The position numbers and the translations under genes are program-made. 64,000 nt of DNA from Chelativorans sp. AA-79 (GTDB taxonomy: Bacteria > Pseudomonadota > Alphaproteobacteria > Rhizobiales > Rhizobiaceae), in assembly GCF_029457495.1 (NCBI RefSeq), contig NZ_CP120361.1, positions 2,186,001-2,250,000 on the forward strand, written 5' to 3'. Numbering within the stretch: position 1 is the stretch's first letter; each line of letters opens with the position of its first letter. The notes beneath the pieces are model-generated. The model did no database searches and was not told the origin of the DNA. It worked only from the letters and a program-made list of their open reading frames with translations. Shown here piece after piece: positions 22,178 to 52,827 of this stretch.

Positions 22178-23064
22178 ACGCGGTGGAGAAGTGGCGTTCC
22201 GGCGAAGCCGGCATCATATTGCCGCGCTGGCTGCGCAAGCCGGCGCGCATGGTCCAGCGCATGCGGCTGGGCGAAGCCGAACCGCCGCGCTTTGCCACGA
22301 GCGGCGCAACGGCGGTTCTCTTCGCGCTCGCAGGCGTTTATGGCGTGATCGAAGGGGGGCATTCGGAAGACGTGCTCCAGGCCATGACCTCCCGCGTCGG
22401 CTTCGCCATCAACAATGTGGAGATCTCCGGCAATCGTGAGACCTCCGAGATCGACGTGCTGCAGCAGGTCGGGCTCGACGGCTGGACCTCGATGGTGGGC
22501 TTCGATGTGCGCGAGGCGCGCGAGCGCATCGTCGAGCTTCCCTGGGTCGAGAGCACGACGGTGCGCAAGGTCTATCCCGCGACGCTCGCCATCGACATGG
22601 TCGAAAAGAGGCCTTTTGCGCTGTGGCAGCAGGGCAGCGCGGTCGTCATCATCGAAGAAAACGGCGACATTATCGCGCCTTTCGACGGGGGGCGCCATGC
22701 GTTGCTGCCGCTGGTCATCGGCATGGGTGCCGACAAGGCCGGGCCGGAGCTCATCGCCTCCGTGGAAAAAGTGCGCGGACTTAAGGGGCGCGTGCGGGCC
22801 TATATCCGTATTGCCGATCGGCGCTGGGATCTCAGATTGAACAATGGCGTGACGATCAAGCTGCCGGAGAAGGGCGTGGAGGAAGCATTGGCCGAAGCGT
22901 CCCGCCTCGACGCCGAGTATTCGCTGTTCTCCCGTGACATCACGGCGATCGACCTGCGTCTTTCCGACAGGTTGACGGTGGCGCTCGCTCCGGCGGCCGC
23001 GGAGGCGCACCAGAAAGCGTTCGAGGAGATGGAGAAGCGTCGCAGGAAAGGGGCCAGGATATGA
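22165..23064 (+). CDS. ftsQ: cell division protein FtsQ
   Basis: This protein has 299 residues from a TTG start. TTG 22165 is preferred because GGAGG (22153-22157) lies 7 bases upstream and the product starts [13 protein letters not shown] 22144 is an alternative. It has a cytoplasmic N-terminus, a membrane segment near residues 48-64 ([17 protein letters not shown]), then the periplasmic POTRA domain ([18 protein letters not shown]) and FtsQ beta domain. It recruits FtsB/FtsL. The start lies inside ddlB and the stop overlaps ftsA, so the three are coupled. Confidence 0.9.
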
Positions 23065-24374
23065 GCTGGTTCCTGGGTAATCGTGGCGCGGCGCAGCGTT
23101 CGGGCATCATCACCGTTCTCGACGTCGGCTCGAGCAAGGTGTGCTGCATCATCGCCAGGCTATTGCCGGACGAGAACATGCGCGCGCTGCCGCACAGGAC
23201 CCATCGGATCAAGGTGGTCGGTATCGGCCATCAGAAGTCGCAGGGCCTGAAATCGGGCGTGGTGATCGATCTCGACCGGGCGGAGCAGGCCATCCGGCTC
23301 GCCGTGGACGCGGCGGAGCGTATGGCGGGGCTCACCGTCGATTCGCTCATCGTCAATGTCTCGGCCGGGCGCATCCGCAGCGAGGGGGCGTCCGCGACCA
23401 TCAATCTCGGCGGGCACGAGGTTGCCAATGCCGACATCGCGCGGGTGCTGCTTGCCGGTGCGCGCCAGGCGCTGCGCGCCGAGCGCGAGGTGGTGCATTC
23501 GCTGGCCGTGGGCTTCACGCTCGATCTGGAGCGCGGCATCCGCGACCCGCGGGGCATGATGGGAGACACGCTCGGCGTCGACATGCATGTGGTGACGGCC
23601 GATGCCGTCCCGCTCCGGAATCTGGAGCTTTGCATCAACCGCGCGCATCTTTCGGTGGAGCGCATGGTGGCCACGCCCTATGCGAGCGGGCTTGCTGCAC
23701 TCGTCGACGACGAGGCGGAGATGGGGGCGGCCTGCATCGACATGGGCGGCGGCACCACCACCATGTCCGTGTTCGTGGAGGGGAAGTTCGTTCATGCCGA
23801 CGGCCTGCCCATCGGCGGCAATCACGTGACGATGGACCTCGCGCGCGGGCTGTCCATCCGGCTCGACGATGCGGAGCGGCTCAAGGTGATGCACGGCTCG
23901 GCGCTGCCGGCGAGTGCCGCCGACGACCGCGACATGGTGTCGATCCAGCCGATCGGCGGCGAGGACGTGGACCAGCCGCTGCAGGTGCCCCGCTCGGTGA
24001 TGACGCGCATCGTTCGGGCACGCATCGAAGAGATCCTGGAACTGGTGCGTGACAGGCTCAATCGTTCTGGATACGGCGCCCTGGTCGGTCGCCGTGTCGT
24101 GCTCACGGGCGGCGCAAGCCAGCTCACGGGTTTGCCGGAAGCCGCACGCCGGCTTCTGGGGCGGAATGTCCGCCTCGGTCGGCCGCTTGGCGTGGCGGGC
24201 CTGCCTGAGGCGGCGAAGGGGGCGGCCTTTGCGGCCCCGATCGGTCTCTTGATCTATCCGCAGGTGGCGGAGTTCGAGAGCCGGGCGGCGGCCAAGGGCG
24301 GCATTTTCATGCGCTCCACGGGGACAGGAGGCAGGTTGCATCGTGTCGGCCAGTGGTTGCGAGACAGTTTTTGA
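23061..24374 (+). CDS. ftsA: cell division protein FtsA
   Basis: This is a 437-residue actin-like ATPase. Phosphate-1 motif is TVLDVGSSKVCCIIA, then an SHS2/1C subdomain, phosphate-2 AACIDMGGGTTTMSVF, and the adenosine motif VVLTGGASQLTGL near residue 350. The last residues (GRLHRVGQWLRDSF) form an amphipathic helix, the membrane-targeting sequence. It anchors FtsZ to the membrane by binding the FtsZ C-terminal peptide, which matters because the ftsZ frame is disrupted just before that peptide. Confidence 0.94.
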   Translation: MSWFLGNRGAAQRSGIITVLDVGSSKVCCIIARLLPDENMRALPHRTHRIKVVGIGHQKSQGLKSGVVIDLDRAEQAIRLAVDAAERMAGLTVDSLIVNVSAGRIRSEGASATINLGGHEVANADIARVLLAGARQALRAEREVVHSLAVGFTLDLERGIRDPRGMMGDTLGVDMHVVTADAVPLRNLELCINRAHLSVERMVATPYASGLAALVDDEAEMGAACIDMGGGTTTMSVFVEGKFVHADGLPIGGNHVTMDLARGLSIRLDDAERLKVMHGSALPASAADDRDMVSIQPIGGEDVDQPLQVPRSVMTRIVRARIEEILELVRDRLNRSGYGALVGRRVVLTGGASQLTGLPEAARRLLGRNVRLGRPLGVAGLPEAAKGAAFAAPIGLLIYPQVAEFESRAAAKGGIFMRSTGTGGRLHRVGQWLRDSF

Positions 24375-24443
24375 CGGGGGAAGGGCCCCACTGACAGTCA
24401 CCGCGGCGGCGCGGGGGCGGGAAAGGCGGAAAGGACGAGGACT

Positions 24444-26089
24444 ATGACCATCAATCTCAAGAAGCCGGATATTACCGAGCTGAAGCCGAGGATCACCGTC
24501 TTCGGCGTCGGTGGCGGAGGCGGAAACGCAGTCAACAACATGATCACGGCCGGGCTTCGCGGCGTCGAGTTCGTCGTGGCGAACACCGATGCCCAGGCGC
24601 TGACCATGGCGAAGGCCGAACGGCTGATCCAGCTCGGCGCCGCCGTGACGGAGGGCCTCGGCGCCGGCTCGCAGCCCGAGGTCGGCCAGGCCGCCGCCGA
24701 GGAGTGCATCGACGAGATCCTCGATCATCTGTCGAACACGCATATGTGCTTCGTCACCGCCGGCATGGGCGGCGGCACGGGCACGGGTGCGGCCCCGGTC
24801 GTGGCGCGCGCGGCGCGCGAAAAGGGCATCCTCACCGTCGGCGTGGTCACCAAGCCGTTCCACTTCGAAGGCCAGCGGCGCATGAAGATCGCCGATCAGG
24901 GCATCGAGGAGCTGCAGAAATGCGTCGATACGCTCATCGTCATCCCGAACCAGAACCTCTTCCGCATCGCCAATGACAAGACCACCTTCGCCGACGCCTT
25001 CGCGATGGCCGACCAGGTGCTCTATTCGGGCGTCGCCTGCATCACCGATCTGATGGTCAAGGAAGGCCTCATCAATCTCGACTTCGCCGACGTGCGCTCG
25101 GTGATGCGCGAGATGGGCAAGGCCATGATGGGCACGGGCGAGGCGTCCGGCGAGGGCAGGGCGATGGCGGCGGCCGAAGCCGCGATTGCCAACCCGCTCC
25201 TCGACGAGACCTCCATGAAGGGCGCGCGGGGCCTCCTCATCTCCATCACCGGCGGCCGCGACCTCACCCTCTTCGAGGTGGACGAGGCGGCGACCCGCAT
25301 CCGCGAGGAGGTCGACCCGGAAGCCAACATCATCCTCGGCGCCACCTTCGACGAGGAACTGGAAGGCGTGATCCGCGTCTCGGTGGTCGCCACCGGCATC
25401 GACAAGTCGGCGCATGAGATCTCCTCGCCGCCCTCGGCGATCCGCCAGCCGCCGCGTCCGGCCGCCCCGGTCCAGCCGAAGCCCTCGGCGGGGCTCGAGA
25501 CGCGCGCTCCGGCCCCGCAGCCTGCGCCCGCGGAGACGATGGTCCAGGACGAGCAGGTGGACGCCCATCATGATGCGGTGGCCGACGCGATCCGCGCGGC
25601 GGGCCATGGCGGCGCGGCCGCTCCGTCAGCAGGCTTCCAGCCGCAGAGCAAGCTCTTCAAGCCCGCCGCTCCCGCGCCGGAGCCGGTTCTCCGGCAGCCC
25701 GCGCCGCAGCCGCAGCCGCAGCCTGCCAGGGTGGAGCCCGCGCCTGCGCCGCGCATGCCGCGCGTGGAGGATTTCCCGCCGGTGGTGCAGGCCGAGATCC
25801 AGGCCAGCGCCCCCGGGAGGTCGCCCCGGAGCAGGAGGAGCGCGGGCCGATGGGGCTCCTGAAGCGCCTTACGACGGGTCTCTCGCGCCGCGAGGAGGAC
25901 ACGCATGCCGCCCAGCCGCCGGAGCCGCGCTTGCGCCAGCCCGATCCGCGCCGCGCCGCGCCCGACGACAACATCTATGCGCCGCGGCGCGGCCAGCTCG
26001 ACGACCACGGCCGGGTCGTGCAGCAGCGGCCGTCGCAGGAGGACGACCAGCTCGAGATTCCCGCCTTCCTGCGGCGCCAGGCGAACTGA
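24444..26089 (+). CDS. ftsZ: cell division GTPase FtsZ, with 1-base frameshift in the C-terminal linker
   Basis: The GTPase core is intact: [14 protein letters not shown], the tubulin signature [13 protein letters not shown], and the T7 loop [12 protein letters not shown] long Pro/Ala-rich linker follows, typical of Hyphomicrobiales. The reading frame that starts at 24444 ends at 25862 with a spurious tail. The continuation, [17 protein letters not shown] through the conserved C-terminal peptide [12 protein letters not shown], is in another frame ending at 26089. Adding one C to the CCCCC run at 25810-25814 joins the frames into a 548-residue protein. The peptide binds FtsA, so the disruption is probably a sequencing error or a recent mutation. 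Confidence 0.92.
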
Positions 26090-26170
26090 AGCATCCTGCA
26101 GCCGGAATCACCCGGTACTGCACGAATGCGGCAGAGACAAAGAGATGGAACTGCTTTGAAGGATGGTCGG

Positions 26171-26202
26171 GGAACGGGCGCGGCAGCGCCCGTTCCTGTT
26201 TT
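26171..26202 (+). terminator. rho-independent terminator after ftsZ
   Basis: An 11-bp perfect stem (GGAACGGGCGC, 26171-26181, with its complement at 26186-26196) and a GGCA loop are followed by TGTTTTC. It closes the dcw cluster before lpxC. Confidence 0.85.
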
Positions 26203-26370
26203 CGAAAAAGCTTTGGAAACAAGGGATTGGAGCTGGGAATCAGGCCGACTGTTCGGTAACACGGGGTAAGAAAGCGTGATTTGGCGCTGGCCTGCCGGAT
26301 CACTATCTTCCCTGCGGATTTGAGCAGGGTGCCTCGGCAGGCCTGCTGCTGCAAGAGCCGGGCCGCGAGA

Positions 26371-27354
26371 ATGGAAAACAAGCGAAAGCCGTTGGCCGGA
26401 CCGCTGGGGGTACAATTGCTCGAATATCAAACGACTCTCAAGTCGCGTTTCACGCTGTCGGGCGTCGGCGTCCATACCGGCAAGGCCGTTTCCATCCATT
26501 TCAACCCCGCCGAGCCCGATACGGGCATCGTGTTCCAGCGCATCGACGAAGGCGCCTCCGGCAAGGTCATCCGCGCGCTCGCGTCGGATGTGGGCGCGAC
26601 GGACCTTTGCACCGGCCTCGGCGATCCGGCGGGTGACCATGTGGCCACCGTCGAGCATCTCATGGCCGCGCTGATCGGCATGGGCATCGACAATGTGGCG
26701 ATCGAGATCGACGGCCCGGAAGTTCCCATCATGGACGGCAGCGCATCGGTCTTCGTCGAGGCCTTCGCGCAGGCGGGCATCGTCCAGCTTTTGGAGAAGC
26801 GGCGCTATATCCGGGTCGTCAAGCCCGTCCGCTTTGAATCGGGTAGCTCGTGGGCCGAGTTCCAGCCTTACGACGGCACGCGATTCGAGGTCGAGATCGA
26901 TTTCGAGACGCCGGCCATCGGCCGCCAGTCCTTCGCCACCGATTTTTCGTCCGGAACCTTCGCGAAGGAGATCGCGCGGGCACGCACCTTCGGCTTCATC
27001 AAGGATGTGGAGCGGCTGTGGGCGGCGGGCTACGCGCTCGGCTCCTCACTCGAGAACTCGGTCGTGATCGGCGAGGATCATCGCGTCATCAATATGGAAG
27101 GCCTGCGCTACCCGGACGAGTTCGTGCGCCACAAGATGCTCGATGCCGTGGGCGACCTTGCGCTCGCCGGCGCGCGCTTCATCGGCTGCTTCCGCTCCTA
27201 TCGCGGCGGCCACCGCATCAATGCGGCCGCACTTCGCAACCTGCTCACCGACCGTTCGGCCTTCGAGATCGTCGAGGCCGCACGGCGCGGCGGCGGGCGC
27301 GGCGCTGAGATGATCGCGGTCAACGCGCCGCTCTATGCCCCCTGGGTGATCTGA
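26371..27354 (+). CDS. lpxC: UDP-3-O-acyl-N-acetylglucosamine deacetylase LpxC
   Basis: This protein has 327 residues from ATG 26371 ([20 protein letters not shown]); the frame is open upstream to 26281 but that part has no family match. The conserved start [18 protein letters not shown] is followed by zinc ligands in VEHLMAAL and [12 protein letters not shown] and the catalytic-base region [14 protein letters not shown]. It performs the committed step of lipid A synthesis. It is separated from ftsZ by a terminator, so it probably has its own promoter. Confidence 0.94.
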
Positions 27355-27538
27355 GATCCGGCATCCGGCTCATCCGTGGTGCCTGGCTCCCGAGCGGCGA
27401 TCCACAGCCCGGCTGGCGCTGCTGTCTCTTCGCCACAAAAATGTGCCAATGAGGCCGGATAGCGTTGCCGCGTCTTTGCTTTATGCCTATGACTGCGTGC
27501 ACATCTTGGTTCCGCCATTCCAGAGGAACGGACTGCGA

Positions 27539-28405
27539 ATGTTTGTGAATAGTCCCGCCAGCAGTGCCCGCCGGCCACGGCTTCATACGCTGGCTTTCGC
27601 GGCGCTCGCCGCCCCCCTTTTTCTGGCTGGCTGCAACGCCGAAAAGGATGTGGACCTGTCCGCCTTTGTCGAGCAGACCGAGCCGGCCGACGTCCTCTAC
27701 AATCAGGGACTGGCGAATCTCAACGCCGGCCGCTGGAGAGAGGCGGTGGCGAAGTTCGAGGCCGTCGACCGCCAGCATCCCTATTCGGAGTTCGCCCGCA
27801 AGGCGCTTATCATGAACACCTTCGCCAACTACCGGCAGGGCAAGTACACGGACGCCATCAGCGCGGGCAAGCGCTATGTCACGCTCTATCCCACGAGCGA
27901 GGATGCCGCCTACGCCCAGTATCTGATCGGCATGAGCTATTTCCGCCAGATCAAGGACGTCACGCAGGACCAGCGCGAATCCCGCCTTACCATCGAGGCC
28001 ATGCAGCAGGTGGTCGACCGCTGGCCCGATTCGGAATATGTGGCTGACGCGCAGACCAAGATCCGCTTCGCCCGCGACCAGCTCGCCGGCAAGGAGATGC
28101 AGGTCGGCCGCTACTATCTGGAGCGGCGCGAATACATCGCCGCCATCAGGCGCTTCCGCGGCGTGGTCGAGAACTATGCCAACACCCGCCATGTGGAAGA
28201 GGCGCTGGCGCGCCTGGTCGAGGCCTATCTCGCCATGGGCATCTCCTCTGAGGCGCAGACGGCCGCCGCGGTGCTCGGCCACAACTTCCCCGAAAGCCAG
28301 TGGTACAAGGATTCCTACAGGCTGCTGCAGTCGGGCGGGCTCGAGCCGCGCGAGGACAGGGGCTCCTGGATCTCCAGGGCCGCCTCCGCCATCGTAGGGA
28401 GCTAG
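27539..28405 (+). CDS. bamD: outer membrane protein assembly factor BamD (ComL)
   Basis: This is a 288-residue lipoprotein. The signal peptide runs to the lipobox LFLAGC, with the lipidated Cys at about residue 30. TPR repeats follow ([44 protein letters not shown]). BamD is the essential lipoprotein of the BAM complex. ATG 27539 was chosen because it gives a clean signal peptide and follows AGAGGAACGG; the open frame to 27443 would not. Confidence 0.92.
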
Positions 28406-28420
28406 CCGCCGGGCGCGCCG

Positions 28421-30094
28421 ATGCTGTCGCACCTTTCGATCCGCGATATCGTCCTGATCGAACGGCTCGACATCGACTTCTCGGCCGGGCTCTCGGTGCT
28501 GACCGGCGAGACCGGCGCCGGCAAGTCCATCCTGCTCGATTCGCTTTCGCTCGCCCTCGGCTCGCGGGGCGACGCCTCGCTCGTGCGCCACGGCGCCGAA
28601 CAGGGGCATGTGACGGCCGTCTTCGACGTGCCGACGGCGCATCCGGCGCGCGAGATCCTGCGCGACAACGCGATCGACGACCAGGGCGATGTCATCCTGC
28701 GCCGCATGCAGACGGCGGATGGCCGCACGCGCGTCTTCATCAACGACCAGCCGGCGAGCGTGGCGCTCATGCGCCAGATCGGCCGGACACTGGTGGAAAT
28801 CCACGGCCAGCACGACGAGCGCGCGCTTGTCGACACCACCGCGCACCGGGCGTTGCTCGATGCCTTCGGCGGGCTCGGCTCCCGGGCCGCGGCGGTGCGC
28901 ACTGCCTGGCGGGACTGGCGCCAGGCCGAGCAGGACCTGGCCCGCCACCGCGCCAGGGTCGACGCGGCTGCACGCGAGGCCGATTTCCTGCGTGCTTCGG
29001 TCGATGAACTGTCGAAGCTCGATCCGCAACCGGGCGAGGAGACGGAGCTGGCGGAAGAGCGCGCGCGCATGATGCGCGCCGAAAAGATCGCCGCCGATAT
29101 CTCCGATGCGCAGGAGGTGCTGTCCGGCAACAGTTCGCCGGTCCCCGCGCTCGCCGGCCTGCTGCGCCGGCTCCAGCGCAAGGCGCAGGAGGCGCCGGGC
29201 CTGCTCGAGGAGATCGTCACCTCGCTCGACGAGGCGCTTCTGTCGCTCAACGCCGCTCAGGATGCCGTGGATGCCGCCATGCGGGCCAGCGAGTTCGATC
29301 CGGACCGGCTGGAGAAGGCCGAGGAGCGGCTCTTCGCGCTGCGTGCCGCCGCGCGCAAGCACAATGTGATGGTGGATGATCTCGCCGCGCTGCGCGACCG
29401 TATGGATGCGGATCTGGCCGATCTGGACGCCGGCGAGGAGAGGCTCGGCCGCCTCGAAAAGGAGGCGAAGGCACGCCGTGCCGCCTATGACGAGGTCGCC
29501 GCACTGCTTTCCGAAGAGCGGCGGCGGACCGCCGAGGTGCTGGCCGATGCGGTCATGGCCGAGTTGCCTGCGCTGAAGCTGGAGCGCGCGCGCTTCATCG
29601 TCGAAATCCAGAGCGAGCCGGACGACCGCGCGGAGGAAGGCATCGACCGGGTGGAATTCTGGGTGCAGACCAATCCCGGTACGCGGCCCGGTCCGATCAT
29701 GAAAGTGGCGTCGGGCGGCGAGCTTTCGCGCTTCCTGCTCGCCCTCAAGGTGGCGCTCGCCGACCGCGGCTCCGCGCCCACCCTCGTCTTCGACGAGATC
29801 GATACCGGCGTTGGCGGGGCGGTGGCGGATGCGATCGGCCAGCGGCTTGCACGGCTCGCGCAGCGCATCCAGGTTCTCTCCGTCACCCACGCGCCGCAGG
29901 TCGCCGCCCGCGCCAACACGCATTACCTCATCGCCAAATCCGGTGGCCACGACCGCGTCACCACCGGGATTGCCGTCATGGATACGGCCCAACGGCAGGA
30001 GGAGATCGCGCGCATGCTCGCCGGCGCCACCGTGACGGACGAAGCCCGCGCCGCCGCCGAACGCCTCCTGCGCGAAAACGCGGCTCTTGCGTAG
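28421..30094 (+). CDS. recN: DNA repair protein RecN
   Basis: This is a 557-residue SMC-like ATPase. Walker A is TGETGAGKSILLDSL at residues about 28-42, followed by a Q-loop region and a central coiled coil (about residues 160-370). The ABC signature is VASGGELSRFLLAL, and Walker B is TLVFDEIDTGVGG. It acts in RecA-dependent double-strand break repair. It starts 15 bases after bamD. Confidence 0.95.
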   Translation: MLSHLSIRDIVLIERLDIDFSAGLSVLTGETGAGKSILLDSLSLALGSRGDASLVRHGAEQGHVTAVFDVPTAHPAREILRDNAIDDQGDVILRRMQTADGRTRVFINDQPASVALMRQIGRTLVEIHGQHDERALVDTTAHRALLDAFGGLGSRAAAVRTAWRDWRQAEQDLARHRARVDAAAREADFLRASVDELSKLDPQPGEETELAEERARMMRAEKIAADISDAQEVLSGNSSPVPALAGLLRRLQRKAQEAPGLLEEIVTSLDEALLSLNAAQDAVDAAMRASEFDPDRLEKAEERLFALRAAARKHNVMVDDLAALRDRMDADLADLDAGEERLGRLEKEAKARRAAYDEVAALLSEERRRTAEVLADAVMAELPALKLERARFIVEIQSEPDDRAEEGIDRVEFWVQTNPGTRPGPIMKVASGGELSRFLLALKVALADRGSAPTLVFDEIDTGVGGAVADAIGQRLARLAQRIQVLSVTHAPQVAARANTHYLIAKSGGHDRVTTGIAVMDTAQRQEEIARMLAGATVTDEARAAAERLLRENAALA

Positions 30095-30122
30095 CGGCGG
30101 CTCTTGCGGCTGGCCATGCCGC

Positions 30123-30384
30123 ATGACCGTCAGCCAGAAGCGCGGCCCGATCCACACGGAGGTCACAAACGACTTCAGCCGGCGTGTTTTCGAGCACAAG
30201 TCTGGCGAAGGCTCCGGTTTCACATGGCGTCCAGCACCTCGTCTGTTATGTGGAGCATTTCGATATCCGCGATGCGATCCAGCGGGAAAAGTCCCTCAAG
30301 CGCTGGCCGCGCCAATGGAAGGTCGGACTGATCGAGAGCGCTAATCCCGAATGGCACGAGCCGATGCGCGGGATCGGGTGGTGA
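30123..30384 (+). pseudogene. GIY-YIG endonuclease-like gene, decayed
   Basis: Two reading frames together resemble a small GIY-YIG protein of the YhbQ/UPF0213 type. The first (from 30123) contains EVTNDFSRRVFEHKSGEGSG followed by FT. The second (to the stop at 30384) contains HGVQHLVCYVEHFDIRDAI, REKSLKRWPRQWKVGLIE and NPEWHE. The frame changes near 30220. The start segment carrying the first GIY strand is missing, and the expected YIGVTND is IHTEVTND, so the catalytic motif is lost. No function is expected. Confidence 0.7.
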
Positions 30385-50780: not shown

Positions 50781-51464
50781 CTAGGCTTCCTGCACCGCTT
50801 GGGCGCGGTCTGCGCGGGGAGTCCGGCGGCCGAAGGCGCGCAGGAAAGTGCGGACCGCGCGGCGCGCCGCGGTCAACAGTTCGTCGTCCGACAGCGACCT
50901 TCCGAACATGGAGGGCATGTTGATTTCGGCGTTGTTGAGCGCCATGAACTGGCGTGCCGCGATGTCCGGGTCGTCGATATCGAGGTAGCCGGCATGCGCC
51001 AGCCGCGCCAGGCGGGAGGCGAGGGCGGACTCGATCTTCCCCGGCCCTTCGCGGCGCCAGACTTCATAGAGCTCCGGATACCGCTCGCCTTCGGCCATAA
51101 GCATCTTGCGCAGGACCGTTCCTTCGCGGCCCCAGATGCAGTTCTTGTTGAAGCGCAGCGCGAAAGCCACCAAATCCGCTTCCAGATCGTCCGGCTGGTC
51201 CGGGAAGGTGTCGAGGATGGCGAAGGCGCGCTCGTTCGTCCGCTCGGTGATCTCGCGCAGCACCGTGGCGAAAAGCTTGTCCTTGTCGCCGTGATGGTTG
51301 TAGATCGTCTGGCGGGAAACGCCGGCTTCCGCCGCGATGATGTCGATGTTGGCGCCTGCAAATCCTTCGCGGCAGAACACGGCCGCAGCCGCGTCGATAA
51401 TCGACCGGCGTTTGGCGGCGTGGCCGCGTGGCGGGAGAATGTCAGGACAGTTACGGTGTCTCAT
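50781..51464 (-). CDS. TetR/AcrR family transcriptional regulator
   Basis: This 227-residue protein has an N-terminal helix-turn-helix (about 18-65: KRRSIIDAAAAVFCREGFAG, AGVSRQTIYNHHGDKDKLF) and a helical ligand-binding domain (TetR_C type). It is divergent from a Bcr/CflA-type efflux gene. A near-perfect inverted repeat (51493-51510) lies between them, so it probably represses the pump and itself. Confidence 0.88.
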   Translation of the reverse strand: MRHRNCPDILPPRGHAAKRRSIIDAAAAVFCREGFAGANIDIIAAEAGVSRQTIYNHHGDKDKLFATVLREITERTNERAFAILDTFPDQPDDLEADLVAFALRFNKNCIWGREGTVLRKMLMAEGERYPELYEVWRREGPGKIESALASRLARLAHAGYLDIDDPDIAARQFMALNNAEINMPSMFGRSLSDDELLTAARRAVRTFLRAFGRRTPRADRAQAVQEA

Positions 51465-51492
51465 CGACTCCTATATAAAACTGATTGACGAA

Positions 51493-51510
51493 TTAGACAA
51501 GGTTGTCAAA
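51493..51510. promoter_or_regulatory. putative TetR operator between regulator and efflux gene
   Basis: TTAGACAA (51493-51500) and TTGTCAAA (51503-51510) form an 8-bp inverted repeat with a single mismatch and spacer GG, in the AT-rich divergent intergenic region. Confidence 0.6.
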
Positions 51511-51618
51511 AATAGTGGCCGGGGAATCCGATTGGAGGAGTGTCGGATTCCTTTCGGATGAAACGTCGTTCAGACGGTCGCCGTTCCGGCGTCCTCCATT
51601 TTTTCGAAAGAACAACTG

Positions 51619-52827
51619 ATGTCAGCTGCTTTTTTCCGCACCGCGGTCGTGCTCGGACTTCTGTCGGCCATAGGTCCCTTCGCCATTGACATGTATCTGC
51701 CGGCGCTGCCCACCATCGGCGCCGACCTGAACGCGGGAACCACTGCCGTTCAACTGAGCCTTCTGGTCTTCTTCCTTTCGATGGGCTTTGCTCAGCTCGC
51801 AGTCGGACCGATCTCGGACATGGTGGGACGCAAGGCGCCTCTCTATTTCGGGCTCCTGCTCTTCATCGCGGGCAGCATCGGCTCGGCGCTGGCGCCGAGC
51901 GTGGAATGGCTCATCGCTTTCCGCGTCATGCAAGGGCTCGGCGCCTCGGCGGGGATGGTCGTGCCGCGCGCGGTGGTGCGTGATCTGCACACCGGAAACG
52001 AGGCCGCACGGCTCATGTCCCTGCTGATGCTCGTCTTTTCCATCTCGCCGATCCTGGCGCCACTCACCGGGAGCATCGTCATCGCGGCATTCGGATGGCG
52101 TGCCGTCTTCTGGGCCGTGACGGTCGCGGCCCTGGTCGGGCTGGTGCTCATCTCCACCTCGCTCTCGGAGACGCGGCCGGCCGAGCAGCGCGTGGGCAGT
52201 TCCTTCCGCACCGCGCTCGCCGGTTACCGCTATCTCCTGGGCGACGGGAAATTCCTGGGCCTCACCTTCATCGGCGGGTTCGGGATATCGAGCTTCTTCG
52301 TCTATCTGATGAACTCGCCGTTCGTGCTGATCGACCATTACGGCCTGTCGCCATCGCTCTACAGTGTGTTCTTCTCCATCAACGCGGTGGCCTTCTTCGC
52401 GATGTCGCAGCTTACGGGTACGCTGGTGGAGCAGTACGGGTTGAGGCGCGTGGTGCGCGTGGCCGTTTTCGGCTTCACCACCGCCATGATCGCCCTGCTC
52501 GGTGTCATGGCCTCCGGGTTCCAGCCGCTATGGGTGCTGGCCGTGCTGCTTCTGGTCGGCTACGGCTTCCTGGGGCTGGTGATCCCCACGACATCGGTGC
52601 TCGCCATGGACGATCACGGCGAGATCGCCGGAACCGCATCGGCGCTGATGGGCACCCTCCATTTCGCCGCCGGTGCCGGGGCCATGGCGGTGGCGGGGCT
52701 GTTTTTCGACGGCAAGCCGCTCTCGATGGTCACCGCGATCGCGGCGTGCGCCGTCATCGCCTTCGGGCTGACGCAGCTCACGCTTGGGCGCGGCCGTGAA
52801 CTGGCTTCGCGGGCTGCGGCGGAGTAG
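51619..52827 (+). CDS. MFS drug-resistance transporter, Bcr/CflA type
   Basis: This 402-residue transporter has 12 predicted transmembrane helices. The family start is GLLSAIGPFAIDMYLPALPT, with loop motif A-like GPISDMVGRKAPLYFG and motif C-like region FSISPILAPLTGSIVI. It is a probable proton-driven multidrug exporter of the inner membrane, divergent from a TetR regulator. A terminator lies directly downstream. Confidence 0.9.
   Translation: MSAAFFRTAVVLGLLSAIGPFAIDMYLPALPTIGADLNAGTTAVQLSLLVFFLSMGFAQLAVGPISDMVGRKAPLYFGLLLFIAGSIGSALAPSVEWLIAFRVMQGLGASAGMVVPRAVVRDLHTGNEAARLMSLLMLVFSISPILAPLTGSIVIAAFGWRAVFWAVTVAALVGLVLISTSLSETRPAEQRVGSSFRTALAGYRYLLGDGKFLGLTFIGGFGISSFFVYLMNSPFVLIDHYGLSPSLYSVFFSINAVAFFAMSQLTGTLVEQYGLRRVVRVAVFGFTTAMIALLGVMASGFQPLWVLAVLLLVGYGFLGLVIPTTSVLAMDDHGEIAGTASALMGTLHFAAGAGAMAVAGLFFDGKPLSMVTAIAACAVIAFGLTQLTLGRGRELASRAAAE

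Follow-up and report, generated by a model that had tools for sequence, protein, structure and literature searches.

FtsA is described as binding the C-terminal peptide of FtsZ directly (PMC5832921), and among the FtsZ homologs of A. tumefaciens essentiality is, according to PMC13170164, confined to the one that carries both the linker and this peptide. The other A. tumefaciens homologs resemble the gene considered here in being FtsZ proteins without a C-terminal peptide; however, the same paper presents them as extra, non-essential copies, whereas here the truncated form would be the sole FtsZ. A second kind of precedent comes from long-read assemblies, in which indel errors fragment genes. 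The Kastor paper (PMC12007338) counts 25 frameshifted pseudogenes for a short-read assembly and, before correction, 83 for a hybrid one, and by these counts an isolated break in an assembly is ordinary. The present case shares with those described there the single break, the otherwise selected gene, the short C run nearby and the unbroken relatives, but differs in that an excess of such breaks is not established in this assembly. In this report, we consider a frame break in ftsZ within the window, that is, the whole stretch of 64,000 nucleotides from Chelativorans sp. AA-79 that was analysed, and argue that its best explanation is quite probably a single, isolated error of assembly or base calling. 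Among full-length FtsZ proteins of the Rhizobiaceae, the nearest is a Chelativorans protein of 552 aa (P0002), which is 88% identical over 98% of the 472 aa encoded in the window. Proteins of this type and the window have the same linker-end motif, but the C-terminal peptide lies in frame in P0002 and in another frame in the window.

The assembled ftsZ starts just downstream of ftsA, and the features of the region are collected in Table 1. Its first frame stops at 25860–25862, while the end of the linker and the FtsA-binding peptide are encoded in another frame, which is open up to its own stop at 26087–26089. A break of this kind with an intact tail behind it had been reported in the preliminary description, which also pointed to a CCCCC run where one extra C would restore a protein of 548 residues; the run is present and adjoins the break, and the residue count is arithmetically right. 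The core of the 472-aa product is complete according to Pfam, with the tubulin/FtsZ GTPase domain (PF00091) at residues 16–177 (E 1.5e-48) and the FtsZ_C domain (PF12327) at residues 225–320 (E 2.7e-38), and the conserved C-terminal peptide, although encoded in the DNA, is out of frame as assembled. When compared with the ftsZ of relatives, the last 20 residues reach their best scores in shifted frames (57 and 47, against 32 in frame), and the 40 residues preceding them match in frame with a score of 155. In agreement with this, a scan of codon statistics places the switch of the coding signal at about 25817. Scanning for promoters and terminators across 25700–26400 gave nothing. The AGGAGG, its 11-nt spacing and an ATG at 25850 overlapping the stop of the first frame together form a well-placed re-initiation site for the displaced tail, which is probably accidental. 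Two long antisense open reading frames, one opposite ftsA–ftsZ (23160–25607, minus strand, 815 aa) and one farther along (27320–30223, minus strand, 967 aa), are probably shadow reading frames of a GC-rich genome.

Table 1. Features around the frame break in ftsZ (window coordinates)
Feature	Position	Strand	Basis
ftsA, 437 aa, no break seen	23061..24374	+	ORF; FtsA and SHS2_FTSA domains (Pfam)
Assembled ftsZ frame (472 aa), with both core domains (GTPase and FtsZ_C), the greater part of the linker and roughly 15 residues out of frame	24444..25862	+	ORF and Pfam
Interval judged to hold the frame change; exact base not placeable from sequence	25805..25830	+	Codon-statistics scan (25817) and alignment with 14 same-genus ftsZ
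CCCCC run named in the preliminary description; its 8-mer CCCCCGGG not found in relatives	25810..25814	+	Sequence; 0/109 other loci
AGGAGG, Shine-Dalgarno-like, 11 nt before ATG 25850; most likely merely conserved codons	25833..25838	+	Sequence; similar codon block in relatives
Displaced end of ftsZ, read in the second frame: linker end and C-terminal peptide; 79 aa from ATG 25850	25850..26089	+	Peptide, pN/pS, sole genome match

Comparison with relatives, which had been proposed as a check, was made on 110 translated ftsZ loci, comprising the window's own, 80 kept loci and 29 from 60 relatives, with some genomes counted twice. The C-terminal peptide is in frame in 103 complete loci, six further loci run off their contigs, and the window's alone is complete without the peptide. 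The gene is thus unbroken in every complete locus other than the window's (103/103), as looked for in the case of an indel in the assembly. An ancestral truncation was considered as well and is refuted for the relatives compared, as the truncated frame is shared by none of these 103. In a protein search, the nearest named relatives of this ftsZ belong mostly to Chelativorans, then to Nitratireductor, Aquibium, Mesorhizobium and others; no ftsZ of the same species was found among them, the best protein match being 88% identical. Among named genomes, the best locus is that of Mesorhizobium sp. IRAMC:0171, with 95% over residues 1–328, where its contig ends. At the DNA level, 14 genomes of the genus were aligned with the window, a further one (G003) being left out since its gene is cut by the contig end. 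The break lies where the linker is variable and these relatives differ both in length and in letters. A search for the 8-mer CCCCCGGG beyond nt 1100 of ftsZ gave no match at the 109 other loci, a number that includes the six contig-cut ones, some of them cut before that point. Given this absence and the variability of the linker, there is no sign of an inherited five-C run that merely grew or shrank, and the lost base has no exact position in the sequence that we can assign.

Peptide-less FtsZ proteins also occur sporadically in the database, where 7 of the 120 listed (the best 120 of 8000 scored) have no C-terminal peptide. One of them, P0102, is clearly frameshifted, losing the frame at about residue 495, with its last 40 residues scoring 99 shifted against 40 in frame; P0106 is probably out of frame from about residue 450, on weaker scores, and P0076 has one out-of-frame window within the linker. 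P0031 is labelled partial by its source, and P0048, P0051 and P0107 end early, their last 40 residues being best matched in frame. These cases fit sporadic assembly errors, although some may be real mutations of single strains.

The displaced tail has kept the character of coding sequence. In the frame that is proper to it, comparison with five of the 14 relatives from the genus gives pN/pS values of 0.15, 0.25, 0.30, 0.32 and 0.26, and a pair of relatives compared with each other over the same tail gives 0.15, while the first 960 nt of ftsZ are more constrained, at 0.04–0.09 (all from uncorrected counts). No further stop interrupts this reading. The tail is therefore still evolving as coding sequence under purifying selection, and selection is seen on both sides of the break, which is a further mark of an assembly indel. 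A tail that is still coding-like in this way implies that the organism either does not have the break at all or acquired it very recently.

There appears to be no other gene in the genome to take the place of this one. In the 5.76 Mb three-contig genome, no second ftsZ, no second FtsZ_C domain and no second ftsZ tail were found (E <= 0.001), the displaced tail being the only match of its kind; the possibility of a second intact copy, raised in the preliminary description, is answered by a single match each for the gene, the FtsZ_C domain and the tail. A viable cell with the 472-aa FtsZ alone would be surprising by analogy with the homologs described above. Second ftsZ-like genes were noticed in two same-genus genomes, at G005:C3:37921-38901 and at G013:C8:101433-102482, the latter with three in-frame stops.

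If the isolated error is the right reading, the organism would carry an ordinary full-length ftsZ, the assembly would be one base short in the GC-rich, repetitive linker, and the cell would make a normal FtsZ with its GTPase core, disordered linker and FtsA-binding C-terminal peptide. Ranking error first, as the preliminary description did, is supported by the unbroken relatives, the intact tail and the single gene copy, with the adjoining ftsA frame, in which no break is seen, counting on the same side. We therefore infer that the break which is present in the assembly is not present in the cell. A lone assembly error is preferred because it needs the least, while a true mutation would strike a single-copy, presumably essential gene. 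Such a mutation, very recent and confined to the sequenced stock, would leave the sole FtsZ without a C-terminal peptide and without its tether to FtsA, so that survival would depend on impaired division, suppressors or a mixed culture. We regard it as unlikely. Polymerisation could persist with the core domains intact, and a general excess of frameshifts in the assembly is not established; however, the gene is single-copy, the tail shows no decay (pN/pS 0.15–0.32), the tail is kept in all 103 other complete loci, and the peptide that would be lost is the direct binder of FtsA according to PMC5832921. The stronger proposition, namely a living Chelativorans-like bacterium whose sole FtsZ has no FtsA-binding tail, either lost or supplied as a separate 79-aa peptide, and whose Z-ring is stably tethered by other means, is very unlikely. 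If true, division by a sole FtsZ without its FtsA-tethering tail would be a direct test of how far the tether is dispensable in an alphaproteobacterium. If the break is an error, the matter is one of annotation only: the gene would be listed as truncated or as a pseudogene, and the protein set of the genome would lack an essential member.

Two further explanations would make the break functional. A short and a full-length FtsZ would both be made if ribosomes underwent a programmed -1 shift, or if transcription slipped, at the C run; each frame is open on its own side, and a CCC codon within CCCCC could, as read from the sequence, re-pair one base back. This mechanism, which had been floated in the preliminary description, finds no conserved slippery site (CCCCCGGG in 0/109 other loci), the 14 aligned same-genus genes are read without any shift, and the 120 nt after the run (25815–25934) are less stably folded than every one of 200 shuffled versions (z +3.1), leaving no downstream structure. 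The lack of a conserved site at the break and of structure after it makes programmed frameshifting unlikely, and a search of the literature on programmed frameshifting in ftsZ yielded two papers, each with a single mention of FtsZ; we consider it extremely improbable. The gene might instead be split, with the 472-aa FtsZ accompanied by a separate 79-aa tail peptide initiated at ATG 25850 behind AGGAGG (25833–25838) through coupled re-initiation at the overlapping stop (25860–25862). The arrangement of these elements and the purifying selection on the tail are compatible with this, but in several of the 14 aligned relatives, whose gene is unbroken, a similar AGGAGG-and-ATG block serves simply as codons and hence needs no such role, and a free tail would presumably not tether the polymer. 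The split gene seems to us exceedingly unlikely.

Returning to the isolated error, the C run itself does not stand out as its cause. A miscounted run had been named as the simplest explanation, but no copy of CCCCCGGG turned up at any of the 109 other loci. In the conserved genes scanned below, 288 in number, there are 233 C/G runs of five (perhaps including that of ftsZ) and 40 of six or more, 273 in all, without another convincing frameshift at about 77% sensitivity. The CCCCC run is thus no more than a candidate for the site of the frame change, and five bases is short for a homopolymer miscall.

Evidence on the quality of the assembly is mixed and weak, and a clear excess of frameshifts is not established. 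A homology scan with queries from genome G009 covered 288 genes (295.5 kb) and revealed no convincing frameshift; it recovered 77 of 100 simulated single deletions but failed to pick up ftsZ itself. With queries from G002, 124 genes were covered, and the ftsZ break was detected together with one weak short open reading frame (173 aa). For zero events in 288 genes at 77% sensitivity, the upper 95% limit is about 4 per 295 kb, and tens of errors genome-wide would therefore still be compatible with this result. Three signals besides ftsZ arose in the window's genome (G000) in these two scans; the one at G000b 322110 overlaps a perfectly conserved block which, by reading of its sequence, resembles a tRNA gene, for the one at G000a 51180-51799 the relatives show a similar signal, and the third is the short frame of 173 aa just mentioned. 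For the most part, the homology scans flagged what appear to be over-extended starts of open reading frames. A strict codon scan gave 11 raw calls in 1.2 Mb of the window's genome (2, 2 and 7 per 400-kb stretch), and two relatives together gave 3 in 0.8 Mb (3 and 0); the filter found 21–23 of 60 simulated deletions and lost ftsZ itself, and two of the 11 calls are copies of one insertion-sequence-like element. This result hints at an excess of frameshifts and slightly favours the error reading. With a looser filter, which found 42–48 of 80 simulated deletions, the raw calls per 400 kb were 8, 18 and 14 in the window's genome against 13 and 11 in the relatives, that is, without excess, and at a still lower threshold they were 17, 25 and 26 against 21 and 23. 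A one-strand codon scan, also tried for estimating the frameshift rate, was discarded as far too noisy. A separate observation concerns a pair of open reading frames in two frames, between which the frame changes at an AAAAAA run, at L124:10402-11426 (minus strand), G000 C1 near 2281010, with a second copy near G000 C1 228404; the pair resembles an insertion-sequence transposase, perhaps IS630-like, with a putative programmed shift site.
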